A stretch of 64,000 bases of DNA from Alphaproteobacteria bacterium MarineAlpha12_Bin1. GTDB lineage: Bacteria > Pseudomonadota > Alphaproteobacteria > UBA6615. The DNA is taken from assembly GCA_002937505.1 (NCBI GenBank), contig PTJY01000005.1:62001-126000 (forward strand), written 5' to 3'. Below are positions 28,638-42,496 of this stretch, piece after piece; positions within the stretch are counted from its first letter, which is position 1, and every line of letters starts with the position of its first letter. The position numbers and the translations under genes were made by a program. A model generated the notes under the pieces. It was not told where the DNA came from. It made no database searches and worked only from the letters and a program-made list of their open reading frames with translations.

Positions 28638-29639
28638 ATGATTAATGTAGCTGTAGTTGGCTTGGGATGGTGGGGTAAGCACGTCTGTAACGCCCTCCAT
28701 GCTAATAGTAGTAGTTTGAAAGTAGTTCGAGGGGTTGAAATTAATTTGGATGCAGTCAAAGATTTAGCCTCGAATATCGGATTTGAACTATCAAAAAATT
28801 ATGAAGATGCTCTGATGGATGAAAATGTTGAGGGGGTTATCTTGACCACTCCTCACTCTACTCATGAGGAACTAGTTCTAAAAGCAGTTGAGGCAGGTAA
28901 ACAGGTTTTTTGCGAGAAACCTCTTTCGTTAACAGCGTCTAGTGCAAAAAAAATGGTGAAAGCATGTAGTGATTCAGGTCTTATTCTTGGATTGGGGCAC
29001 GAACGCCGTTTTGAGCCTGCCATGGAAGAGTTGGCTCGTATGGTAAAAGGTGGAGAGTTGGGCACAATTTTACATGTTGAAGGGCACTATTCTCATGATA
29101 AATTTGCCCCACTTGCCTCAAATAACTGGCGTGGTTCGAAGATCGATGCACCAGCTGCAGGATGGACAGGTATGGGAGTTCACTTAACAGACATGCTAAT
29201 CAGCATGCTGGGGCCAATCAAAGAAATCCGTGCAATTTGTGAAAAGCGTGTACTAGATTTGCCTAGTGGAGATGTTGTTAGCACGCAGTTTTCATTTGGT
29301 GACGGCACGACAGGAACCATTAATGTAGTATCAGCAACACCTTTTTATGGACGTTTTGCCGTCTATGGAGAACAAGGATGGGTAGATATACAGGAAATGG
29401 CTCATCCAGAGGATGTTGGACCCACACATATGACGATTTGCGACAAATCTGGTAAGCGTGATCTTAAAGTTTTTGAATTTACTGATACGGTCACAAAAAA
29501 TTTTGATCATTGGGCTGATGCTGTTCAGGGAAAAGTAAACTACCGGTTTAGTGATACAGAAAGGATTTCTAATGTTGCTGTTCTTGAAGCGTTAGCCAAA
29601 TCAACTTTAACGGGTAATGCTGAGTTGGTAGATAATTAG
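28638..29639 (+). CDS. Gfo/Idh/MocA-family oxidoreductase
   Basis: NAD(P)-dependent dehydrogenase acting on sugars, inositols or related polyols. Rossmann motif VAVVGLGWWGKHV at the N-terminus; the family signature CEKPLSLTASSAKKMV (the EKP motif) lies near residue 95, and the C-terminal alpha/beta domain includes GLGHERRFEPAMEELARMV and GMGVHLTDMLISMLG. Length 333 residues is normal. Ribosome site AGGGAG precedes the ATG. First gene of the plus-strand group leading to the M24 hydrolase and the PEP-kinase/Tm-1/flavoprotein genes. Confidence 0.9.
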   Translation: MINVAVVGLGWWGKHVCNALHANSSSLKVVRGVEINLDAVKDLASNIGFELSKNYEDALMDENVEGVILTTPHSTHEELVLKAVEAGKQVFCEKPLSLTASSAKKMVKACSDSGLILGLGHERRFEPAMEELARMVKGGELGTILHVEGHYSHDKFAPLASNNWRGSKIDAPAAGWTGMGVHLTDMLISMLGPIKEIRAICEKRVLDLPSGDVVSTQFSFGDGTTGTINVVSATPFYGRFAVYGEQGWVDIQEMAHPEDVGPTHMTICDKSGKRDLKVFEFTDTVTKNFDHWADAVQGKVNYRFSDTERISNVAVLEALAKSTLTGNAELVDN

Positions 29640-29783: not shown

Positions 29784-31043
29784 ATGCGATATGGTAGCGC
29801 GAATTTCGGGATAACAGGAGTTGACTGGCAGCAACGTATCAATTTTGAGCGGATGAGAACTTATCGTCTTGAACGTGCGCGTGATATGATGAAAAAAGCA
29901 GGTCTAGGGGCTATGCTTTGCCTATATGATGAAAATGTGCGTTATATCACTGGTACGCTAACTCCTGGCTGGAACCGTCTAAAACCAGGTTTAAGGTATG
30001 CTCTTTTATGTGGCGACGGGCAACCAGTTCTATTCGAACAAGGGGATATTGGTGCTCAGGTAGAACGCCATGCTCCATGGATTCCACCCGAGAATATTAG
30101 GTATTCATATGCCTGGATTAAAGGAGCAGCTGGGCCTGCCTCAACTCAACAGGTAACAAAGTTCACCAATGCAATACAGGAAGAGATGAAACGTCATGGC
30201 GTTGCTGGAGAAAAACTTGGTGTAGACTTTATTGATCTAAATATGATCAACCACTTTAACGATGTAGGCATCGAATGGGTTGATGGTATGTCTCCAATGA
30301 TGGATGCCCGAGCGGTAAAGAATGTGGATGAACAAGAATGTTCTCGTATAGTTGGGGCGATTGGCGATGCGGCACACTGGGAATGCATGAAATTTCTTAA
30401 ACCAGGGATAACTGAAAATCAGGTGACTGCTCACATTATGAAGTTTTTATATGATATTCCTGGCATGGAAGACGTTGAAGATGTGATTGTTTCTTCCGGG
30501 CCTAATACTTGGCCAAACTGGAGAAATTTTGGTGATAGAATAATACAACCAGGCGATATCGTCTTTATGGACTTAGCTGCTTTAACTTGGAATGGTTATA
30601 AGTCTTGCTATTATAGAACTTATTGCGTTGGACGAGAGCCGACCCAAGAGATGAAAGATGTTTATTCGGAGGCTCTGGGTTGGTTATACGACTCTATTGA
30701 AGCAGTCAAAGCAGGAACAACTACCAGAGAGATAGCTCTTAAGTGGCCATCTGCTAAAGAGACTTGGGGGTATGAGGAAGAAGATCAAGCCGCTGCTAAT
30801 TTATGGGGTCATGGCCTTGGTTTAGCCCAGTACGATCCTCCAGTGATTTCTCGTATTTGGTCTCTTGATCATCCAATTGAAATCAAGCCTGGAATGGTTT
30901 TTGCCTTAGAAACACAGCATGGTATTCCGTTTAAATTTGGTGTTCGAATAGAGGAGATGCTGATTGTTCATGAAGATGAAACCGAGATTATAACAAACTT
31001 CCCGGTTAATCAGATTACTGTTGTAGATCCAATGTCTCATTAG
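29784..31043 (+). CDS. M24-family (pita-bread) hydrolase with altered metal site
   Basis: Creatinase/aminopeptidase-P fold protein of 419 residues: N-terminal creatinase-like domain followed by the pita-bread domain. Expected metal ligands are Asp263 (FMDLAALTWNGY), His343 (WGHGLGLAQ), Glu376 (ALETQHG) and Glu390 (VRIEEMLIV). The second Asp of the metal pair, in the usual SDxxRT pattern, is Cys275 (KSCYYRTYCVG). The family includes peptidases, creatinase, ectoine hydrolase and the DMSP lyase DddP, so substrate is open; the Cys argues against ordinary dimetal peptidase activity. Ribosome site CAGGAG before the ATG. Confidence 0.88.
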   Translation: MRYGSANFGITGVDWQQRINFERMRTYRLERARDMMKKAGLGAMLCLYDENVRYITGTLTPGWNRLKPGLRYALLCGDGQPVLFEQGDIGAQVERHAPWIPPENIRYSYAWIKGAAGPASTQQVTKFTNAIQEEMKRHGVAGEKLGVDFIDLNMINHFNDVGIEWVDGMSPMMDARAVKNVDEQECSRIVGAIGDAAHWECMKFLKPGITENQVTAHIMKFLYDIPGMEDVEDVIVSSGPNTWPNWRNFGDRIIQPGDIVFMDLAALTWNGYKSCYYRTYCVGREPTQEMKDVYSEALGWLYDSIEAVKAGTTTREIALKWPSAKETWGYEEEDQAAANLWGHGLGLAQYDPPVISRIWSLDHPIEIKPGMVFALETQHGIPFKFGVRIEEMLIVHEDETEIITNFPVNQITVVDPMSH

Positions 31044-31074: not shown

Positions 31075-31103
31075 AACGGCCGGGCGAGAATCGTCCGGCC
31101 GTT
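31075..31103 (+). terminator. Strong 13-bp hairpin between M24 gene and PEP-kinase gene
   Basis: Arms AACGGCCGGGCGA (31075-31087) and TCGTCCGGCCGTT (31091-31103) pair over 13 bp with a single G-T wobble and a GAA loop. It lies 31 bases past the M24 stop and 24 bases before the next ATG. The following bases are TCATATTA, so the U-tract is poor for a classical terminator on the plus strand; on the minus strand the flanking run is TTTTATTTGC. It may be a weak or bidirectional terminator, or an mRNA-stabilising/processing hairpin. Confidence 0.6.
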
Positions 31104-31127
31104 CATATTAGATAGTTGTGAGAAGTG

Positions 31128-32456
31128 ATGACAAAATTTGTTGTAAATCTATCAGACCTGGAGGCAGCGGACCCAAATCGTTTTGGCCCAAAAGCGGCCA
31201 ATCAGGCTTCTTTGGAGCATGCTGGTTTACCAACGCCTGGTGGCTTTTGTTTGGGGGCTGACGCTTATAACCATCAGATTAAATTTTTGAATCTTGAGGA
31301 CGCAGCCACAAAAGCAGTCACTTTGCCATTTATGGAATCAAGAAGTCACGTTGCTGATGTTCGTATAGGGCTATTTTCTAAACCAATAGCTCCTGAAATA
31401 AAATCGGAGTTAATAGAAGCCTACAATCAACTAGTCTCTGCATCTGATTGCCGAATAGCCGTAAGATCATCTTCTTTAATGGAGGATACTGAGGGTTCAT
31501 CATTTGCAGGACAGTTTCAGACATTTCTTGGTATAGATAACGAAGATGATTTTCTTACCGCGTTGAGAGCTTGTTGGGGAGCCCTGTGGTCTCCTAGGGC
31601 TATGAGATATATGGACGATAAAAACATCAGTGCTATCGACACTGCTATGGCAGTTTTGGTCCAGCCATTGGTAGAAGCGAATGCCTCGGGTGGGGGACTT
31701 AGTCAAAAAGCGGATGGAGGTATGTCAATTAGTGCCACTTGGGGATTGGGAGAAGCTTTGGCACAAGGAGAAGTGGTACCTGATCGCTATGATCTTTCTT
31801 CTGAGGGGGAAATTCTTGAAATTGTTGGAGGTCAGGAGTTTCAACACAGTGTCTACTGTAACGTTCACGGTATGCCAAATAATCAAGCCCACCCAAGATC
31901 TCATGACCATCAAATTGAGCATGAAAACAAAAAATCTAAAGTTCGCTGTCTTACAAAGCAGCAAATTGTTGAAATCGCAGGTTATATGAAAACCGCAGAG
32001 AAGATGATGGGACAGGCAGTAGAAGTAGAATGGGCCGCAGGTGATAAAGGTATTAAAATGTTGCAGGCGAGGCCATTACATGTCCGGGAGATTAATATCC
32101 CGGATGAAATTTGGAAAGGTAAACCCTCGATGAGGGGGCATCCTGGTGGAATAGGCTGGGCATCGGGTAGGGCGTGTATCATAAGCTGTGAGTGTGAAGT
32201 TTCACGCATTAACCCTGGAGACGTTTTAGTTACCAAGGTTGCTGGCCCTGCTTTGGCCAGTGTTTTGCCTAGAGTTTCTGGAATAATAGCCGAATTAGGT
32301 GGTAGTACTTCTCATCTTGCGTCATTGGGTCGTGAAAGAGGGATTCCAATGGTCTTAGGTGTACAAAACGCGACACAAAAGATTATAGATGGATCTATGG
32401 TGGCTGTGGATGGTGTTTCAGGGGAAGTACGATGGGTTCCGCCTACTGCCGGGTAA
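31128..32456 (+). CDS. Compact PEP-synthase-like protein: ATP-binding domain plus phosphohistidine domain
   Basis: A 442-residue protein with the ATP-binding domain of PEP synthase/PPDK (residues 1-315: KAANQASLEHAGLPTPGGF, IAVRSSSLMEDTEGSSFAG, GLGEALAQGEVVPDRYDL and E-WAAGDKGIKMLQARPL) joined directly to the mobile swivelling domain with catalytic His396 in GGSTSHLASLGRERGIPM. The PEP/pyruvate TIM barrel of PEP synthase, and the middle domain of rifampicin phosphotransferase, are both absent. It could pass a phosphoryl group to a partner-bound substrate. ATG at 31128 follows a GTG by one codon; GAGAAG precedes. Cotranscribed with the Tm-1-like and flavoprotein genes. Confidence 0.88.
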   Translation: MTKFVVNLSDLEAADPNRFGPKAANQASLEHAGLPTPGGFCLGADAYNHQIKFLNLEDAATKAVTLPFMESRSHVADVRIGLFSKPIAPEIKSELIEAYNQLVSASDCRIAVRSSSLMEDTEGSSFAGQFQTFLGIDNEDDFLTALRACWGALWSPRAMRYMDDKNISAIDTAMAVLVQPLVEANASGGGLSQKADGGMSISATWGLGEALAQGEVVPDRYDLSSEGEILEIVGGQEFQHSVYCNVHGMPNNQAHPRSHDHQIEHENKKSKVRCLTKQQIVEIAGYMKTAEKMMGQAVEVEWAAGDKGIKMLQARPLHVREINIPDEIWKGKPSMRGHPGGIGWASGRACIISCECEVSRINPGDVLVTKVAGPALASVLPRVSGIIAELGGSTSHLASLGRERGIPMVLGVQNATQKIIDGSMVAVDGVSGEVRWVPPTAG

Positions 32457-32495
32457 ACTATTTTTTAACTTAATTATCCCTCGAGGTATTGGAGT

Positions 32496-33737
32496 GTGTC
32501 AGAAAAAAAAGTAGTTGTCTTAGCTACACTGGATAGTAAACCTGATGAGGCTAAATATGTTAGCTCTGTATTAGAGCGAGCCGGCGTGATCCCCTATATA
32601 TGTGACCTATCGCTACGCCCTCATGATATAGATGGTGCTGTTTGCAATGGTAATGATTTTGCTCAAGCCGTTGGTTCTTCCTGGGATGAATTAGCAGATA
32701 TGGATAGGAACCAAGCTGCAGAGTTTATGGTTAAAGGCGCTTCCGTCATACTTAAGAAATGGCTTGAAAATAATAAATTTTCCGGAATTATCGGTTTGGG
32801 TGGAGCAAATGGTACGTCGATGAGCTGCGCAATAATGCGCTCTCTTCCAACGTTAATGCCTAAAGTGATGGTTAGTGCTGTTGCAGCAACAGGAGCGGTT
32901 CAATGGTATGTAGCCGAGAGTAATATTGCAATGTTTCCGTCAATTGGTGATTTTACACTAAACCGTATTACTCGGGGTGTTTTGGATAACGCTGGAAAGG
33001 CCTTAGCAGGAATGGTAATGGTCCATGAGACAGCGGATGAAGCATCCAATGATAGCATACCACTAATCGGCATTTCTTCTTTTGGGGGAACTGCAGGCTG
33101 TGTTAATCGATTAACAGAATCCCTTATGAGTCTAGGTTATGAAGTTATTCATTTTCATGCTTCAGGACCGGGCGGTAAAGCGCTGGAGTCATTAGCACGA
33201 CAGAAAGATTTATCAGCGGTCTTAGATATAACCACACATGAGATAACAGATTACCTTGTTGAAGGAGTTTATAGTGCTGGAGAATCCCGGTTTACTGCAG
33301 CTAGTGAGGTTGGCTTGCCACAAATAGTTGTACCCGGGGCAATTGACCACTCTAATTTCTGGGTTAATGAGGTGCCTGATAAATATTCTGATAGAGAGTT
33401 TTTTCAATATAATGCTCAGAATATTTTAATGCGGACTAATTCCGAAGAATTCGAGGCAATTGGTGATTTGATGGCCGATCGTTTAAACCAATCAAAGGCT
33501 CCATTCGTTGTGCTTATACCTAGTCTTGGTTTTAGTGAGCACACAAAACGTAAAACTTATGATCTTAAGGGAAATGAATACGGTTTTTGGTTAAAGCCAG
33601 AAATTGATGGGGTGTTTACTACTGCTCTTAAAAAGAAATTAAATAAAGGTAGAGTAGTGGAGCTCGATCTGCATATTAATGATCCCAAATTCGCTGATAA
33701 TTGTTTAAGTTGTTTTTTAGAATTAATGAAAAAGTAA
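32496..33737 (+). CDS. Tm-1-like ATP-binding protein (UPF0261)
   Basis: Homologue of the N-terminal ATP-binding half of tomato Tm-1; bacterial members have no proven reaction. Seen: VVLATLDSKPDEAKYVSSVL (N-terminal Rossmann-like half), GIIGLGGANGTSMSCAIMRSLP, GISSFGGTAGCVNRLTESL, HASGPGGKALESLA, and the C-terminal LPQIVVPGAIDHSNFW. Length 413 residues matches a single UPF0261 unit. In many bacteria this gene is next to a PEP-hydrolase-like TIM-barrel gene (the C-terminal half of Tm-1); that partner is not present here. GTG start at 32496 with GAGG upstream. Confidence 0.9.
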   Translation: MSEKKVVVLATLDSKPDEAKYVSSVLERAGVIPYICDLSLRPHDIDGAVCNGNDFAQAVGSSWDELADMDRNQAAEFMVKGASVILKKWLENNKFSGIIGLGGANGTSMSCAIMRSLPTLMPKVMVSAVAATGAVQWYVAESNIAMFPSIGDFTLNRITRGVLDNAGKALAGMVMVHETADEASNDSIPLIGISSFGGTAGCVNRLTESLMSLGYEVIHFHASGPGGKALESLARQKDLSAVLDITTHEITDYLVEGVYSAGESRFTAASEVGLPQIVVPGAIDHSNFWVNEVPDKYSDREFFQYNAQNILMRTNSEEFEAIGDLMADRLNQSKAPFVVLIPSLGFSEHTKRKTYDLKGNEYGFWLKPEIDGVFTTALKKKLNKGRVVELDLHINDPKFADNCLSCFLELMKK

Positions 33738-33762
33738 TTTTTGGAAGCCAGAGGGGGTTATT

Positions 33763-35463
33763 GTGGTACTTCAGATGCCGGTTGAACATTATAAGTCAGA
33801 TGTACTTGTTATAGGAGGTGGCGCTGCAGGCGCGATGGCCTGTTTCGAATGCGCTAATGCTGATGTAAGTGTAATATTAGCCGGCAAGAGTAGACCCCCA
33901 AGCGGAACAACCTCTGTTGCGCGAGGAGGGTTTGCTGCAGCAATGGCTGAAGATGATAGCCCAGAGTTCCATTTATCGGAAATATTAGAACATGGAGGTG
34001 AGTTAATAAATCCGGATCTGGCCAGAGTTTGGTGTGAGGGAATAGTTGAGGTGGTAAATGACCTTCGTCAGTGGGGAGCTGATTTTGTTACCAATGAAGA
34101 GGGGAACCTCGATTTGAAAATGTTTCCCAACCATACTAGGCCAAGAGCAGTTCACCATTATGATACTACAGGTAACATGGTTACTAAAACTCTTGCTAAA
34201 AAGTTGAGACCCGATCAAAGAATTATTCAGCACGCCAATACTGCAATTGTTGATCTAATAAAAGATAGCCAAAATGCTATTGGAGCTTGGGGAGTTAATT
34301 ACAGCAAAGGTACTCTAGTAGCATATTCAGCAAAAGAAATTATTTTATGCACTGGAGGTGGTAGCGGACTATTTTATGTAAATGATAATCCGCCACAAGT
34401 TACAGGAGATGGTTATGTTATGGGGTTTCGAGCAGGTGTAGCTTTACTTGGCTGTGAAATGATCGACTTTCAGGCTATGTGTTGCTCTCCTGAAGAGTTA
34501 TTTGGTTTTGCTCCTCATCCCACAGGTTTCATTAATGCAGGAGCTGTTTTTAGAAATAGCGAGGGGGAGCTTTTTTTAAAGCGCTATTTTCCAAAAACAG
34601 CTGAGAAGAGCACACGAAGTGAAGTTATATTAGCAATGGCCAAAGAAATTCATGCGGGCCGAGCAGGCTTAACTGGGGGGATATTTATGGACGCAACTAA
34701 TGTTCCCCTTGAGGTTATAGAAAAACAAATACCCCATGTTTATAAAACCTGTCTGCATAGAGGCATTGACATTACCAAGACTCCTTTGGAGGTAGCGCCA
34801 GGCAGTCATACCTGGTTAGGTGGGCTCGAGATAGATGTAAATGGAAAAACGCCATTAAACGGATTGTGGGCTGCTGGTGAGACGGGCGGCGGAATTCATG
34901 GTGGAAACCGGATTGGCGGTTCTGCTTTATCCTCAGCTTTAGTATTTGGTAGGCGTGCGGGAAAACAAGCAGCAAGATCAGCAAAAACTAAAAAATTTAA
35001 AGAAGAAAACCTGGATGTACCAAAAGAGGCAAATAACTTTCTTTCAGATCTGATAGAGAGAGATGAAGGTCCTCTTCAGTCTGATGTTCGATTGAGGTGT
35101 CGTATGTTAGCCCATCAAAATCTTGGTTCTATTCGTAGTGCAGAGGGTTGCCAGGAAGCACTAATTGAATATGAGAGAATAGAAAAAGACGAAATACCAA
35201 ATATGCGGTTATCACCTGAAGCAAGATCTTCGGACAGGGTTAGAGGGCAAGAGTTAGAAAGTGCTTTGTCTGTGGCTAATTTAGCTTTACTTGGTCGATT
35301 ACTAGCCAGTGCTTCACTTTCTAGAGAGGAAAGTCGAGGAGCTCATTACAGGACAGACTTTCCTGAAACAGACAATAAGCGCTGGGGTGCTGTAACGCGT
35401 TTAGAACAGGATCTAGAAGGAAATATCCTCGTTAAGAAGGATGCCTTAAAACAGTGTATTTAA
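33763..35463 (+). CDS. FAD-binding protein, fumarate reductase/succinate dehydrogenase flavoprotein-like
   Basis: Soluble flavoprotein of 566 residues in the FrdA/SdhA/NadB superfamily. FAD motif VLVIGGGAAGAMACFECANA, the capping segment SVARGGFAAAMAEDDS, an active-site Arg region (RSEVILAMAKEIHAGRAG), the conserved His in GSHTWLGGLEIDVNG, and GLWAAGETGGGIHGGNRIGGSALSSALVFGRRAG near the end. No adjacent FrdB/SdhB iron-sulphur gene, so it likely works alone on an unknown alpha,beta-unsaturated or hydroxy acid. GTG start at 33763 follows AGAGGGGG; an ATG at 33778 is less well placed. Third gene of the PEP-kinase/Tm-1 run. Confidence 0.88.
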   Translation: MVLQMPVEHYKSDVLVIGGGAAGAMACFECANADVSVILAGKSRPPSGTTSVARGGFAAAMAEDDSPEFHLSEILEHGGELINPDLARVWCEGIVEVVNDLRQWGADFVTNEEGNLDLKMFPNHTRPRAVHHYDTTGNMVTKTLAKKLRPDQRIIQHANTAIVDLIKDSQNAIGAWGVNYSKGTLVAYSAKEIILCTGGGSGLFYVNDNPPQVTGDGYVMGFRAGVALLGCEMIDFQAMCCSPEELFGFAPHPTGFINAGAVFRNSEGELFLKRYFPKTAEKSTRSEVILAMAKEIHAGRAGLTGGIFMDATNVPLEVIEKQIPHVYKTCLHRGIDITKTPLEVAPGSHTWLGGLEIDVNGKTPLNGLWAAGETGGGIHGGNRIGGSALSSALVFGRRAGKQAARSAKTKKFKEENLDVPKEANNFLSDLIERDEGPLQSDVRLRCRMLAHQNLGSIRSAEGCQEALIEYERIEKDEIPNMRLSPEARSSDRVRGQELESALSVANLALLGRLLASASLSREESRGAHYRTDFPETDNKRWGAVTRLEQDLEGNILVKKDALKQCI

Positions 35464-35466
35464 TAT

Positions 35467-36483
35467 TCAAGTGTGGTCCATGATGATTTTCATGCGTTGT
35501 GGGGCATCAGTCCCAACCATCTCCATAGCTTTTCCTAATTGTTCAAGGGGGAGAACGTCACTGATTAAGGGTTTTAGATCAACTGCACCACTACCGACCA
35601 GTTCTAAGCAGCTAACAAAGTCTTTGTCGGTTGCTGCCCGAGCATTGATAAATTGAATTTCTTTAAAATACATATCATAGAAGGGAAGAGAGCCTTCTGT
35701 ATTAGTGTGAATTCCGTATCCGAGAACTCGACCACCTAAGCGAACCAAGTCCATTGCTTGGGCAAGAACTGAGAGCTTTCCTGCTGACTCAACTACTAGG
35801 TCAGCTCCTAATCCATCAGTGGCATCAAGTACTAGATTTTTTGTATTTTCATCGGGGGCTAGTGTAATATCTGCTCCCAAGTTTTCAGCCACTTCTCTTT
35901 TCCATGCGCTGCGAGTTATTCCAATTATCGTTTTTGCTCCAGCTGCTTTGGCAAGCTGAACATGAAGGAGGCCACCAACCCCTAATCCAAGAACTATAAC
36001 GGTTTCTCCAGAAGAGATGGTAGCTAATTGTTGTGCATGCATTACTGTTGTCAAAACTTGTACCAAGGGAGCTTCCTGATCACTTATTGACTTAGGTATT
36101 TCAAAAATATTCTGTGGAGGAGCGGAAGCGAATTCGGCAAATCCTCCATCTTGGTCTCTCCCGATGAGGCCTCCATTCGGACATAATTGGGACTGTCCTA
36201 TTCTGCAGTGGAAACACTCTCCACAATAGAGAACGGGGTCTACGATAACTCTAGTTCCTGATTGAGGACTAGAAGAATTAGCAGGCTCAATTACTTCACC
36301 AATCATCTCATGACCCATTATAAGTGGGTACTCAGCGGGGATCCCTCCCGTGAAAATTTTTAGATCCGTACCACAAACACCTGAATGAGTTACACGAACT
36401 ACACTATTGCCCAGATCTGAATTAGGCATAGAAACATTTTCTAGACCGACTGAGTTAGGGTTATCTAATACCATTGCTTTCAT
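35467..36483 (-). CDS. Zinc-dependent alcohol dehydrogenase (MDR)
   Basis: Medium-chain zinc dehydrogenase of 338 residues, threonine/sorbitol dehydrogenase-like. Catalytic zinc site in HSGVCGTDLKIF and MGHEMIGEV; structural zinc cysteines in CGECFHCRIGQSQLC. Rossmann motif VIVLGLGVGGLLHVQLAKAAGA. It lies convergent to the flavoprotein gene with 3 bases between stops and is first of four minus-strand genes read in reverse order. Probably oxidises a polyol or hydroxy acid in the same pathway. Confidence 0.92.
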   Translation of the reverse strand: MKAMVLDNPNSVGLENVSMPNSDLGNSVVRVTHSGVCGTDLKIFTGGIPAEYPLIMGHEMIGEVIEPANSSSPQSGTRVIVDPVLYCGECFHCRIGQSQLCPNGGLIGRDQDGGFAEFASAPPQNIFEIPKSISDQEAPLVQVLTTVMHAQQLATISSGETVIVLGLGVGGLLHVQLAKAAGAKTIIGITRSAWKREVAENLGADITLAPDENTKNLVLDATDGLGADLVVESAGKLSVLAQAMDLVRLGGRVLGYGIHTNTEGSLPFYDMYFKEIQFINARAATDKDFVSCLELVGSGAVDLKPLISDVLPLEQLGKAMEMVGTDAPQRMKIIMDHT

Positions 36484-36536: not shown

Positions 36537-37511
36537 CTATTCCTTCAAAGCTTCTGGATTGACCGGAAACCTTGGTTTTTCTCCCTTAAGAACTGATGCA
36601 ACGTCACTGGCGACAGTGGTTTGTAGGTCTAGTAAAGCATCTTCTGAATAGAATCCTGTGTGAGGTGTCAAAATTACGTCATCACGCCCGAATAAGGGAG
36701 AATTGGGTTCAGGAGGCTCTTGGGGTAGAACGTCAAGTGCAGCTCCTCCAATTTGGCTTTTCTCAAGCGCGATCACGAGCGCATCGATATCAACAAGCGG
36801 CCCTCGAGAGGTGTTTACAAGCAGGGCATCATTTTTCATTTTAGAAAATTCTTCAGTGCTAAACATATTTTTGGTTTCATCAGTAAGTGGTGCATGCACT
36901 GAAATATAGTCCGATTGGCCTAAAAGTTCTTCAAAACTGACTTTTTTTGTGTTCATCTTTGAAAAAACTTCGTCTGAAGCATACGGATCAGAAGCGATCG
37001 TTTTTATTCCAAATGCTTGAGCCTTGCCAACGACGGCCTGGGCGATGTTCCCTAGCCCAACTAGCCCTAATGTTCGACCTTTAAGCCTCCTGATAGGCAC
37101 AACCGCAGGCATTTCCCACCGTCCTTTTTGAACCAAACTATTCGAAAAAGGGATTTTACGAGCTAAAGACAACAAGGTGGTAATTGCGTGGTCAGATACT
37201 TCGTCTAAACAGTAAAGGGGGGCGTATGTAACAACTATCCCAGCCGCAGTAGCAGCTTCGATATCAATATTATCTGTTCCTACCCCAAAACGACCAATCA
37301 CTTTACAATTAGTTAAACCATCAATTACGTCAGATGTTATTTTAGCATATGTAACAAAAAGTGCTTCAGCTGAAGAACCTACTTCAAGAACGTCTTTTGC
37401 TTCTGGAGATTCAGCTCTTACAAGTTCAACGTTTAAATCTTCTAAGACCTTTTCAGCAGGCTTCCAGTCGGGAAAAACCGTGTCTGAGATGGCTACCGAT
37501 ATTTTGCTCAT
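36537..37511 (-). CDS. D-2-hydroxyacid dehydrogenase (C-terminal binding-protein type)
   Basis: D-isomer-specific 2-hydroxyacid dehydrogenase of 324 residues. NAD motif LGLVGLGNIAQAVVGKAQAFG, catalytic Arg in LVNTSRGPLVD, Glu in ALDVLPQEPPEPNSPLF and His in VILTPHTGFYSEDALLDLQ are all visible. CtBP-like members reduce glyoxylate or 2-keto acids. ATG at 37511 is preferred: GAGGA is four bases ahead, whereas a TTG one codon upstream would sit on the ribosome site. Cotranscribed with the zinc dehydrogenase by spacing (53 bases). Confidence 0.91.
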   Translation of the reverse strand: MSKISVAISDTVFPDWKPAEKVLEDLNVELVRAESPEAKDVLEVGSSAEALFVTYAKITSDVIDGLTNCKVIGRFGVGTDNIDIEAATAAGIVVTYAPLYCLDEVSDHAITTLLSLARKIPFSNSLVQKGRWEMPAVVPIRRLKGRTLGLVGLGNIAQAVVGKAQAFGIKTIASDPYASDEVFSKMNTKKVSFEELLGQSDYISVHAPLTDETKNMFSTEEFSKMKNDALLVNTSRGPLVDIDALVIALEKSQIGGAALDVLPQEPPEPNSPLFGRDDVILTPHTGFYSEDALLDLQTTVASDVASVLKGEKPRFPVNPEALKE

Positions 37512-37567
37512 CAATTCCTCATGTTATCTGTTTAGCTAACCTAATAAGGATATAAATCAAAACTATA

Positions 37568-38611
37568 TTAGTTACCATCCTTTGGAAAATTTTTTGTATT
37601 TTTAAAAGCCCAAATACCATTATTGTCAATATTACGAGTTAGCCTACCTTTTGAAACCATATGATTTAAATGAGCCAATGTTTCTGTCAAAGCTAGGCTT
37701 AATTGAAGACTATCGAGATCGGTAGAAAACGCCCTTGTCGTAATAGAAAATGCTGATGAACTTCTGATACATAGATCCGCCATTTCATTAAGCCTTTTTT
37801 TATGGTGCTCGATAAGTTCGTCGAGCCTGTTATGTAGCCCAAAGAAAGGTTCGTTATGAGAAGGAAGAACGAGTGCTGTAGACGGAAGCCGTGATCGAAA
37901 TGAACTTGTCGTTTTTAAAAACCCCCCAAGAGGGTCATCTCCGCTGTCACCAGGAAAAAGTGATACATTTGGTGATATTCTAGGTAAAACCTGATCACCA
38001 GCAATTAAAACGTCCAGTTCGTCTGAGTAAAGAGAAACATGTTCAGGGGCGTGTCCAGTCCCAATTAAAACTCGCCACTTGTGTTTACCAATGCTGAAAA
38101 CCATATCATCCATAAGTCTGGTATGTAAATCGGGTGTCGGGCTCATCCGTTTATTGTACTCAGACCACAGAGAATGTGTCTCATCTATCATTTTTTGTGG
38201 ACACCCTGCGAGTTTAAAAAATTTCAGTACTTCGTCTGACCAGGCTTTTGTTGGCCCTCCTGCCAACAACCGCGTTCTTTCCCATTCTTTTTTGCTCATC
38301 CATAAAAGAGAAGAGAACTTATCTACTAGCCAACCGGCAAGACCGGCATGGTCTGAATGGAAGTGTGTAACAATAATTCGGTTTATTTTCTGTCCGTTAA
38401 GGTGCTTTTCAATGATTAGTGACCAAGCATTTCGCGCTTCTTCCATAGCCATTCCGGTATCAATAAGCGTCCAACCATCAGTATCCTCTATCAGCCATAA
38501 ATTTATATGATTTAGTCTGAAAGGTAATGGCATTCTAATCCAGAAAACTCCAGGAGCTACTTTTTGAACCTCTCCAGGGTTTGGGATGTCGGAAAATGGA
38601 TATTCTATCAT
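37568..38611 (-). CDS. MBL-fold metallohydrolase with C-terminal winged-helix domain
   Basis: Metallo-beta-lactamase fold protein of 347 residues. Metal motif VTHFHSDHAGLAGWL (HxHxDH) near residue 81, third His region in IGTGHAPEHVSLY, and Asp in DVLIAGDQVLPRIS. The C-terminal ~80 residues (after PSHNEPFFGLH) form a helical/winged-helix domain as in glyoxalase II/LACTB2-like proteins. Likely a thioester or hydroxyacyl hydrolase. Start ATG. Located just downstream of a terminator that ends the FAH gene, so it is a separate unit. Confidence 0.9.
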   Translation of the reverse strand: MIEYPFSDIPNPGEVQKVAPGVFWIRMPLPFRLNHINLWLIEDTDGWTLIDTGMAMEEARNAWSLIIEKHLNGQKINRIIVTHFHSDHAGLAGWLVDKFSSLLWMSKKEWERTRLLAGGPTKAWSDEVLKFFKLAGCPQKMIDETHSLWSEYNKRMSPTPDLHTRLMDDMVFSIGKHKWRVLIGTGHAPEHVSLYSDELDVLIAGDQVLPRISPNVSLFPGDSGDDPLGGFLKTTSSFRSRLPSTALVLPSHNEPFFGLHNRLDELIEHHKKRLNEMADLCIRSSSAFSITTRAFSTDLDSLQLSLALTETLAHLNHMVSKGRLTRNIDNNGIWAFKNTKNFPKDGN

Positions 38612-38679: not shown

Positions 38680-39525
38680 TCATGATTTATATTTCACTAC
38701 TTTACTTCTGTGTTCTCCAAGTTTTTCGACACCACAAGTAACTACATCACCTGGTTTAAGAAATATTTGCGGTTTCATTCCAAGGCCTACTCCAGAAGGT
38801 GTACCGGTGAAAATAACATCTCCTGGATAAAGGGTTATCATCTTACTCATATTACTAATAATTGCTGCGCAATTGAAAATCATGTCTGAGGTATTACTAT
38901 CTTGATAGCGATTTCCGTTTACCTCTAGCCAAAGATTCAATTTTTGAGGATTTCCGACCTCGTCAGAAGTAACCAACCAAGGCCCTATCGGGGCAAATGT
39001 GTCTGGGCTTTTTCCCATAATCCATTGGAGGCCTCCATGTTCAAGTAAAAAGGCTCTTTCGGACACCTCATTTCCTGTTGCGTAACCAGCGACGTAATTT
39101 AATGCATCACGTTTGCTGACGTGCTGAGCCTTTCGTCCTATAACCAGACATAGCTCAACTTCCCAGTCTGATTTTTTGGAACCTTTGGGCAAAATGATCT
39201 GGTCTCGATGACCGGTCAGAGGACAAGTTTTAGTGAATACAAATGGTTCGGGGGGTACTTTTACTCCTGCTTCTTTAGCATGAAGCGCGTAGTTAAGAGC
39301 TATTGCGAAAGTTCTACGAGGCACTATCGGTGGACCTAAACGTTGTCGACCTCCGACTAGAGGCAATTTGTTTTCGTCCATTTTAGATATTTTAGATAAA
39401 CTTCTCGGTGAGAGTGAGTCACCATTAAGGTCGTTTATTATTTTGGATAAATCTCGAATTTTTCCTTTGGAATCCAACATTCCAGGTTTTTCTTTCCCTG
39501 AAGGGCCGTATCGTAATAATTTCAT
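38680..39525 (-). CDS. Fumarylacetoacetate hydrolase family protein
   Basis: FAH-family enzyme of 281 residues, which cleaves C-C bonds or tautomerises acylpyruvates and related beta-diketo acids. Seen: AIALNYALHAKEAGVKVP, the metal motif SDWEVELCLVIGRKA with Glu pair, GYATGNEVSERAFLLEHGG and the C-terminal GDVIFTGTPSGVGLGMKPQ. N-terminal small domain KLLRYGPSGKEKPGMLDSKGKIRDLSKI is typical. Acts in cytoplasm with Mg or Mn. Substrate unknown; fits a sugar-acid or aromatic-acid lower pathway. Confidence 0.93.
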   Translation of the reverse strand: MKLLRYGPSGKEKPGMLDSKGKIRDLSKIINDLNGDSLSPRSLSKISKMDENKLPLVGGRQRLGPPIVPRRTFAIALNYALHAKEAGVKVPPEPFVFTKTCPLTGHRDQIILPKGSKKSDWEVELCLVIGRKAQHVSKRDALNYVAGYATGNEVSERAFLLEHGGLQWIMGKSPDTFAPIGPWLVTSDEVGNPQKLNLWLEVNGNRYQDSNTSDMIFNCAAIISNMSKMITLYPGDVIFTGTPSGVGLGMKPQIFLKPGDVVTCGVEKLGEHRSKVVKYKS

Positions 39526-40017: not shown

Positions 40018-40217
40018 GTTTTATAGGTCTTGTTTATTTTGTATTGAATTATCTGGATAAGTGAAAATGATTTAGCGTTCCTACTGTTGACGTTTACTGC
40101 GTTGAATTGTTTTATTTATCAATACTAAAAAATGAATCTGATTTGACTATTTTAAAACCACCAAAATGTTTTATTCTTTGAAAAAATACAATAAAAGACA
40201 TTAACTGGAGAGTGAGA

Positions 40218-41516
40218 GTGTCTTCTACTTGGCCTTTAACTAAAGCACAAGCAACAAATGATTACGATCGAGATACCCTCGATAACTATTATAGTTTTGT
40301 TCGTAATGAGACAGAACGGTTATCAGGCCCACTTTCTGACGAGGATCAAGTCGTTCAGTCTATGCCGGACGCTAGTCCGACTAAATGGCATAGAGCGCAT
40401 GTTACATGGTTTTTTGAAACAATGATCCTATTGCCCAACGATTCAAGTTATTCACCGTTTAATGAAAAGTATGCATATCTGTACAATTCCTACTATGAAA
40501 GTCTTGGAGCTAGACAACCTAGAGCAGAGAGAGGACTTTTGACCCGTCCCTCTACATCAGATATTTCTGACTATAGAGAATATGTCGATGTTGCTATGTC
40601 AAAATTTATTAGAAATGCTAATGACGAAATTTGGCAAGACTGTCGGCATTTAACTGAGTTGGGAATTAACCACGAGCAGCAACATCAAGAACTAATCCTC
40701 ATGGATATATTACATGCTTTTTCACATAACGATCTATATCCTGCCTATCAGAAGCATAGTCCAATAGAATCAAAAAGCTTATCACCTCTGACTTGGAAAA
40801 ACTATGAAGAAGGGACTTATGAAATAGGTCATGTCGGAGAAGGCTTTTCATTCGACAATGAAGGCCCCCATCATAAAATTATGATTCCATCATTCTCTTT
40901 AGCTTCAAGACCAGTTATTAATTCAGAGTGGAAACAATTTATAGAAGAAGGGGGCTATGAACGCCCTGAGTTGTGGCTGTCGGATGGTTGGTCAACTGTC
41001 AAAGATAGGCATTGGACTAGTCCTCTATATTGGAAGAAGATAGAGGATAAATGGATGATGATGTCCCTATCTGGCCTGCATCCATTAGATATGGACTCTC
41101 CTGTATGTAATATCAGTTACTATGAAGCAGATGCTTATGCTAGATGGGCGAACAAAAGGCTTCCTACTGAATTTGAGTGGGAGATAGCCGCAAAAAATGC
41201 TTCCATTAGTGGTAATTTTTTATGCAGTGGCCTTCTTAGACCTGTTCCTGGTGAAGAGGATGAGACCGAACTACCCCAAAAACTCTTTGGTGATGTCTGG
41301 GAGTGGACCCAGAGTTCCTACTCTGCCTATCCTGGATTTAGACCAGAGGCAGGTGCTGTTGGGGAATACAATGGTAAATTTATGCTTAATCAAATGGTTT
41401 TACGTGGTGGGGCCTGTATAACACCAATGGAGCATATGCGTGTGACATATAGAAATTTCTTTTATCCGCACATGCGTTGGCAATTTGCCGGTATGCGGTT
41501 GGCAGATGATGTATGA
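40218..41516 (+). CDS. egtB: Ergothioneine synthase EgtB-like (iron-dependent sulfoxide synthase)
   Basis: Non-haem iron enzyme joining a thiol (gamma-glutamylcysteine or cysteine) to hercynine. N-terminal DinB_2 domain has the iron ligands in KWHRAHVTW (His61) and NHEQQHQELI; the C-terminal FGE/sulfatase-modifying-like domain shows NISYYEADAYARWANKRLP, DVWEWTQSSYSAYPGF and VLRGGACITP. Length 432 residues. GTG at 40218 is preferred because GGAG at 40207 is seven bases before it; an earlier in-frame GTG at 40212 is too close. Overlaps egtD by ATGA. egtA, egtC and egtE are not adjacent. Confidence 0.92.
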   Translation: MSSTWPLTKAQATNDYDRDTLDNYYSFVRNETERLSGPLSDEDQVVQSMPDASPTKWHRAHVTWFFETMILLPNDSSYSPFNEKYAYLYNSYYESLGARQPRAERGLLTRPSTSDISDYREYVDVAMSKFIRNANDEIWQDCRHLTELGINHEQQHQELILMDILHAFSHNDLYPAYQKHSPIESKSLSPLTWKNYEEGTYEIGHVGEGFSFDNEGPHHKIMIPSFSLASRPVINSEWKQFIEEGGYERPELWLSDGWSTVKDRHWTSPLYWKKIEDKWMMMSLSGLHPLDMDSPVCNISYYEADAYARWANKRLPTEFEWEIAAKNASISGNFLCSGLLRPVPGEEDETELPQKLFGDVWEWTQSSYSAYPGFRPEAGAVGEYNGKFMLNQMVLRGGACITPMEHMRVTYRNFFYPHMRWQFAGMRLADDV

Positions 41517-42496
41517 TTAATAATTCAAAGCTGGATTTGGGTCCTTTGCATGATTTTTATGAATTAGGCCATGCAGAAGCTAATTTTTTGCCTGCTGTAA
41601 TAGAAGGGCTGTCGTTACCTCAAAAGCAATTGTCGAGTAAGTACTTCTATGATCAAAAGGGTTCAGATTTATTTGAACAAATTACCAGGTTACCAGAATA
41701 TTATCCTACGAGAACAGAAATCAGTTTATTAAAAGCTCATGCCAAAGAGTTTGCAGAATTAATTGGACCTGGTGCGAGTTTAATTGAGTTTGGTAGTGGT
41801 TCGAGTAATAAAGTCCGAATAATATTGGATGCTTTGCAGGAACCGTCAGCATACCTACCTATTGATATATCAAAAGATTATTTAATTGAATCAGCTAAAG
41901 ATCTTGCTAGGTCATATCCTGACTTAATTGTGATTCCTATATCTGCTGACTATACTCGCCCTCTTACGCTTCCAGTGCTACCTAGTGAGTTAGTTAGGGT
42001 TGGTTTTTTTCCGGGCTCTACAATTGGAAACTTTTCCCGCGACGAGGCAATCAAGTTTTTGCGAACTGCTTCCATTTATTTAGGTGCTGGAAATGGGTTG
42101 TTAATAGGTGTCGATTTGAAAAAAGACACTGATATGTTGTTTGCGGCTTATGATGATGCGGCGGGTGTTACCGCGAGGTTTAATCTAAATATTTTAAGTC
42201 ACATTAATCGTGAGCTGGGAGCTGATCTAGACCTTGAAGGCTTTAAACATGAAGTTCGATGGGAGGCTGATAAGGGCAGTATAGAAATGCATTTGGTCAG
42301 TAAGTACGATCAAAAGGTGAGCATAAATGGTCACATTTTTCAGTTTGTGGCCGGTGAATCAATTCATACTGAGGATTCCCATAAATATACGATTGAAACA
42401 TTTCAGTCTTTAGCAGAAGAGGCAGGATGGCGTTCACTTTCTCATTGGACGGATTCAGAGGATTTATTCTCAGTCCATTATTTGCAGGTTATATAA
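41513..42496 (+). CDS. egtD: L-histidine N-alpha-methyltransferase
   Basis: SAM-dependent trimethylation of histidine to hercynine, first step of ergothioneine synthesis. Motifs: LSSKYFYDQKGSDLFEQIT, SLIEFGSGSSNKVRIILDAL (SAM site), YLPIDISKDYL, FFPGSTIGNFSRDEA, and C-terminal ESIHTEDSHKYTIE. At 327 residues it is the usual EgtD size. The start overlaps the egtB stop (ATGA), implying coupled translation. Confidence 0.95.
   Translation: MINNSKLDLGPLHDFYELGHAEANFLPAVIEGLSLPQKQLSSKYFYDQKGSDLFEQITRLPEYYPTRTEISLLKAHAKEFAELIGPGASLIEFGSGSSNKVRIILDALQEPSAYLPIDISKDYLIESAKDLARSYPDLIVIPISADYTRPLTLPVLPSELVRVGFFPGSTIGNFSRDEAIKFLRTASIYLGAGNGLLIGVDLKKDTDMLFAAYDDAAGVTARFNLNILSHINRELGADLDLEGFKHEVRWEADKGSIEMHLVSKYDQKVSINGHIFQFVAGESIHTEDSHKYTIETFQSLAEEAGWRSLSHWTDSEDLFSVHYLQVI

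Follow-up and report, generated by a model that had tools for sequence, protein, structure and literature searches.

The window analysed here, a stretch of 64,000 nucleotides from Alphaproteobacteria bacterium MarineAlpha12_Bin1, contains a run of genes on the + strand that opens with a Gfo/Idh/MocA oxidoreductase gene (28638..29639; Pfam GFO_IDH_MocA, 1.9e-25), of a type often located 5' of M24. It is followed by the gene for M24, a creatinase/prolidase-fold protein (29784..31043; Peptidase_M24, 8.3e-36), and, after a hairpin with a 12-bp stem and a 3-nt loop (31076..31102, + strand), by the genes for KIN, a compact PEP-synthase-like kinase with an ATP-grasp and a phosphohistidine swivel domain (31128..32456), TM1, a UPF0261/Tm-1-like protein with both the N- and the C-terminal domain (32496..33737; UPF0261_C 2.7e-66, UPF0261 8.9e-42), and FLAVO, a lone FrdA-like flavoprotein (33763..35463; FAD_binding_2 5.7e-57 plus Succ_DH_flav_C). 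The original prediction had singled out KIN, TM1 and FLAVO, and ORF positions and Pfam matches confirmed its coordinates, its family assignments and the tight co-directional spacing of these three genes, which lie about 25-40 nt apart. Chance alone does not account for the run, as M24 and KIN adjoin each other, and TM1 and FLAVO do the same, throughout the family of the source organism.

The - strand downstream carries genes for a zinc-dependent alcohol dehydrogenase (35467..36483), a D-2-hydroxyacid dehydrogenase (36537..37514; 2-Hacid_dh_C 5.5e-58), homologues of which are often found 3' of KIN elsewhere, an MBL-fold hydrolase (37568..38611) and an FAH-family hydrolase (38680..39525). The alcohol dehydrogenase and the MBL-fold hydrolase are cluster members at the family level. 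The nearest model for the FAH-family protein is 2,4-didehydro-3-deoxy-L-rhamnonate hydrolase, for which it remains below the cut-off (357 bits, cut-off 500). The genes sampled in the window beyond 28-40 kb are fatty-acid/acyl-CoA genes and an ergothioneine-like pair. The latter consists of overlapping egtB-like and egtD-like genes (40212-42496, named from sequence), which are also found near the cluster in several relatives.

KIN comprises 442 aa (443 codons counted from the GTG at 31125) and its only Pfam matches are PPDK_N (residues 18-320) and PEP-utilizers (362-432), so that no third or acceptor domain was recognisable in a Pfam search of the 442-aa protein. Its best matches among solved structures are PEP synthase and rifampin phosphotransferase (RPH), both of which have a fused acceptor domain, whereas KIN is without one. 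K22, R113, E301, Q313, R315 and His396 are conserved in the KIN clade and in full-length relatives. Indeed, KIN displays the features of the PEP synthase/RPH-type dikinase superfamily, namely the ATP-grasp Lys/Arg/Glu/Gln/Arg set and the catalytic His in GGxTSH. It was rejected as a PEP synthase proper, because the C-terminal PEP/pyruvate TIM-barrel domain is absent and the scores of 235-249 bits are far from the PEPS cut-offs of 598 and 740. In a sample of 289 genomes from the class, every other KIN match is a long frame, of roughly 690-1,160 aa. The KIN clade is further marked by its cysteines: C149, C244, C354 and C356 are invariant, and C274 is present in 65 of 66 members. C354 and C356, which form a CEC motif in the swivel domain, are missing from every full-length relative checked, and C244 from all but one, while C274 is found in some. 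We would guess from this sequence pattern that the clade-specific cluster of C244, C274, C354 and C356 might represent a metal or Fe-S site.

To define the gene neighbourhood, M24 was scanned for in one genome per species (GTDB r220), which yielded 128 relatives, and the best 80 of these 128 were taken as loci. In 75 of the 80 loci KIN lies directly 3' of M24 and shares its strand, with a gap of at most 300 nt in 71 of them (median 108). In the five loci without KIN the sequence ends 67-1,014 nt past M24, and in four loci the M24-KIN order is kept across an insertion of 1.0-2.2 kb. TM1 and FLAVO were seen in only 11 and 10 of the same best 80 of 128, respectively, many of which lie on short contigs. 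This contradicts the proposal that KIN, TM1 and FLAVO form a unit to which M24 (29784-31043) is accessory: M24 is the constant partner of KIN, and it is M24 that the kinase regularly accompanies elsewhere. None of the loci was seen to carry a natural fusion of M24 and KIN. In one genome (G010), an ORF of 580 codons is located between TM1 and KIN (L035:7381-9123).

By record title, the loci span the Alpha-, Beta- and Gammaproteobacteria and SAR324; as many carriers are metagenome-assembled genomes, an isolated label that does not fit, such as Acidobacteria, may stem from mistaken binning. In even samples, close M24 and compact KIN occur in identical genomes and nowhere else (3 of 289 in the class, 1 of 398 in the phylum), and close FLAVO marks the same three class genomes of the 289-genome sample. 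Likewise, in a sample of 60 genomes weighted to relatives, close M24 picks out 12, and compact KIN and close TM1 pick out exactly these 12, the order of the M24-KIN and TM1-FLAVO modules being variable among these family genomes. The distance matrices of M24 and KIN correlate (Mantel r = 0.70, p = 0.0005). M24-KIN is a conserved unit, and the pair is rare and patchy. The linkage and co-inheritance point to a shared pathway rather than to physical phosphotransfer. The most probable role of KIN is that of an active phosphohistidine carrier kinase, with the Cys-type M24 protein as its predicted genetic partner.

The M24 protein is well conserved, with identities of 78-99% throughout the M24-KIN loci. 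Its metal-ligand pattern reads D263-C275-H343-E376-E390, with an Asp to Cys replacement at position 275 compared to the canonical D-D-H-E-E. We therefore do not regard it as a canonical M24 metallopeptidase with five D-D-H-E-E ligands, as each of the 86 close homologues with a completely covered site reads D-C-H-E-E (Cys275 in 86/86). The other four canonical ligands are retained, as is the full pita-bread fold in an AF2 model. The M24 fold is common to this protein, DddP, prolidase, creatinase and DoeA, and DddP is the top match both by structure and by sequence. DddP has the metal ligands D295, D297, D307, H371, E406 and E421 and the catalytic residues Tyr366 and Asp377 (PMC4108388). In M24, the positions of DddP Asp297 and Asp307 are taken by Ala265 and Cys275, and Ala338 and Gln349 stand where DddP has Tyr366 and Asp377 (numbering offset to H343). 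Since metal and catalytic residues differ, M24 is not a DddP-type DMSP lyase. Its score of 109 bits lies under the DddP cut-off of 600.

An equivalent of Cys275 is present in eight of nine paralogues of 35-70% identity and six more distant M24 proteins have Asp, which indicates that the Cys is older than the link to KIN. A wider Cys-type M24 subfamily with the motif GYxxCYYRTF is represented, for example, in the source genome (L203:9967-11172, corresponding to G000:C1:216172-217365) and at L202:8001-9230, and includes a protein from a Halorussus plasmid. No KIN gene was located beside the Cys-type paralogues in the two regions viewed (L203 and L202). The subfamily thus also occurs without KIN, and the Cys does not depend on the presence of the kinase. 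One M24 copy contains a single in-frame TAG stop (G001:C12:87157-88413, locus L070), which reflects a sequencing error or else a lesion of recent origin.

The hairpin in the M24-KIN spacer is GC-rich (z = -5.5) and its pattern has a single match in the whole genome. Among nine hairpin sequences from the family, 99% of the pairs are kept and five changes are double-sided, i.e. compensatory. Stems of at least 10 bp are present in 28 of 68 M24-KIN spacers (3.3 expected from shuffles) and stems of at least 15 bp in 9 of these 68 (0 expected). The hairpin sequences of different lineages differ and are unrelated, though they occupy the same spacer, and the Rfam search gave no match to the hairpin near the gathering score. 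As no clear T-run is present at the hairpin in the window, it may set the relative expression of M24 and KIN rather than end transcription.

The surroundings of M24-KIN are dominated by acid-handling genes. Within the best 80 of 128 loci, D-2-hydroxyacid dehydrogenases are found in 44, Gfo/Idh proteins in 31 (at a median of 1.2 kb 5' of M24), SDR proteins in 24, 3-hydroxyisobutyrate-dehydrogenase-like proteins in 22, HisD-like proteins in 16 and cyclase-like proteins in 14, and a LysR gene, frequently divergent, is present in 19. The D-2-hydroxyacid dehydrogenase family is represented in 23 of the 32 loci of at least 18 kb. Recurring transporters are of the TctA/TctC, TRAP and branched-chain-type ABC types. 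These neighbours suggest that organic acids are taken up and degraded, and they support the view, already part of the original prediction, of an undescribed catabolic cluster in which a kinase accompanies acid-handling oxidoreductases. No paper naming an M24 metallopeptidase and a PEP synthase together in one gene cluster was found in a literature search. The M24-KIN pair is apparently undescribed and located in clusters that resemble acid-degradation clusters.

TM1 belongs to UPF0261, with both domains above the gathering cut-off (143.5 and 223.4 bits, cut-off 27), and matches the structures of tomato Tm-1 (3WRY, 7.4e-56) and PDB 9MPY. In bacteria, 97.4% of the genomes with the PEP_hydrolase barrel also carry UPF0261, and the correlated distances of the two indicate co-evolution (PMC5028733). 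This evolutionary study is the only one found in the literature search, which returned no enzyme function for UPF0261 and its partner. The barrel had been described as missing here, which holds for the locus but not for the genome: PF09370 is encoded on another contig (G000:C1:221166-221963, L203:14931-15779; E 1.8e-75, 253.5 bits, cut-off 33.8), roughly 4 kb away from a Cys-type M24 paralogue with 41% identity. The source genome thus resembles the plant Tm-1-like pair of UPF0261 and PEP_hydrolase (TBST) in having TM1 and one barrel gene (PMC5028733), and differs in that the two genes are on separate contigs and an FrdA-like flavoprotein gene follows TM1. The barrel is present in 11 of the 12 family genomes with TM1, the exception being G002, which is 95% complete. 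Two genomes in which no TM1 was found, G011 and G019, have a barrel as well.

Beyond the arrangement in the source genome, one relative (G009, L105/L038) has the order TM1-FLAVO-M24-KIN-barrel, with the barrel directly behind KIN. The adjacent trio, which had been expected in unrelated lineages, is confined to the family of the source organism; in three other Rhodospirillales loci (L154, L155 and L158) a barrel-TM1-FLAVO cassette lies 6-9 kb from M24-KIN. In other families TM1 adjoins the barrel. As the barrel is present in the genome, in the family and beside TM1 elsewhere, KIN has not replaced it, contrary to what had been proposed. The trio proposal thereby fails on both of the counts that had been set for it, as the trio is limited to one lineage and the kinase has a different regular neighbour, M24.

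FLAVO is an FrdA/SdhA/NadB-like protein that reaches 364.8 bits where the cut-off of its best model is 718, which is far under the curated cut-offs of the models listed. Its dicarboxylate site is altered: in every homologue examined, Q or A replaces the substrate His of FHPTG and I or N the Arg of RGEGG, while equivalents of FrdA His355 and Arg390 are kept. A fumarate reductase or succinate dehydrogenase was rejected on account of the replaced dicarboxylate His and catalytic Arg, and neither fumarate nor succinate is likely to be the substrate.

Since M24 and KIN are in the same frame, the read-through protein was modelled with the stops read as Gly. An AlphaFold model based on 54 rows gave good domains (pLDDT 85.8, pTM 0.53) but no confident interface or arrangement of M24 and KIN; an earlier AF2 model from 24 paired rows was of low quality (pLDDT 68, pTM 0.58). 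The M24 part of the AF2 model matches DddP, prolidase and creatinase, and the KIN part RPH and PEP synthase. The HpeHI pair likewise forms no stable complex (PMC12167813), and the model therefore neither supports nor excludes a transient interaction.

The reading that we tentatively prefer, at a probability somewhat below even, is that KIN and M24 function as one unit and constitute a split phosphohistidine dikinase system in acid-catabolism clusters. This is favoured by the M24-KIN linkage, the co-occurrence and correlated distances, the intact ATP site and His396, the hydroxyacid/acid dehydrogenases, LysR regulators and acid transporters in the neighbourhood, and the precedents for split or compact dikinases (HpeHI/CreHI/PpsAB and VadK). 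Counting against it are the roughly threefold faster evolution of KIN relative to M24, the lack of a confident interface in the model and the occurrence of Cys-type M24 proteins away from KIN. In such a system, ATP would bind to the ATP-grasp domain of KIN and the beta-phosphate would be passed to His396 of the swivel domain, with release of AMP and Pi. The phosphate might then be transferred to a small substrate that M24 holds or receives, and the Asp-to-Cys metal site of M24 would carry out the subsequent elimination or hydrolysis. 2-Hydroxyacid, Gfo/Idh and other dehydrogenases, here together with the FAH-type hydrolase, would process the product. In the family of the source organism, a second module composed of the PEP_hydrolase barrel, TM1 and FLAVO would have been added, and its barrel gene moved to a different contig. 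The enzyme activities, the phosphotransfer to an M24-held substrate and the order of the pathway are putative. We consider it unlikely, if conceivable, that the pair represents a new dikinase architecture, in which M24, with its creatinase fold and Cys-substituted metal centre, is the acceptor module for a detached ATP-grasp/phosphohistidine kinase, phosphorylation is coupled to metal-assisted elimination or hydrolysis, and the KIN Cys cluster may bind metal or Fe-S.

HpeHI, CreHI and PpsAB resemble the proposed KIN-M24 system in that ATP-grasp and phosphohistidine swivel domains function in catabolism and a second protein is needed (PMC12167813). However, HpeHI is split into the ATP-grasp domain (HpeI) and the swivel plus acceptor domain (HpeH), whereas ATP-grasp and swivel domains are fused in KIN. 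KIN/M24 was therefore rejected as an HpeHI-type two-component dikinase, the neighbour of KIN having the M24 fold and not an RPH-like acceptor domain.

A rival that we regard as possible, if on the improbable side, is that M24 and KIN are independent enzymes of one catabolic pathway, with M24 hydrolysing or cleaving its substrate and KIN phosphorylating an earlier or later intermediate as its own small substrate. The four retained metal ligands and complete pita-bread fold of M24 and the absence of a confident interface in the model are consistent with this, and operons of sequential enzymes are linked equally tightly. However, KIN has no recognisable acceptor-binding domain, whereas relatives of known function have their own (RPH, PEPS) or share one with a second subunit (HpeH) (PMC12167813, PMC4844700).

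It is improbable that KIN is a kinase with a regulatory or protein-directed role, whose target for phosphorylation or binding would be M24 or a further enzyme of the pathway instead of a small molecule. The model for this is VadK (Rv1127c), a compact protein with the same ATP-binding and phosphohistidine domains and no PEP or acceptor domain, which undergoes autophosphorylation at a His and has metabolic enzymes as interaction partners (PMC13400623). VadK is, however, a PPDK-derived regulator from mycobacteria, and the part of its description covered here mentions no M24 neighbour, whereas KIN is PEPS/RPH-like with its own Cys motif; moreover, the frequently divergent LysR genes in the catabolic clusters around KIN could already provide control. 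That KIN replaces the barrel and acts with TM1 and FLAVO as a trio is very improbable, as the local order KIN-TM1-FLAVO in the source genome and several sister genomes is outweighed by the barrel encoded in trans in this genome and in nearly all TM1-carrying family genomes, the KIN-barrel adjacency in G009, the three barrel-TM1-FLAVO cassettes, the absence of a visible TM1 from most M24-KIN loci and the published co-evolution of UPF0261 with the barrel (PMC5028733).

The trio reading is thereby corrected before TM1 is tested as a partner of the kinase. If M24 and KIN are indeed a functional pair, they would represent a second way to split phosphohistidine dikinases, and the highly conserved Cys-type M24 clade, now likely annotated only as peptidase, would be given a testable role. 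The pair would also mark a so far uncharacterised route by which marine and soil Proteobacteria degrade acids.
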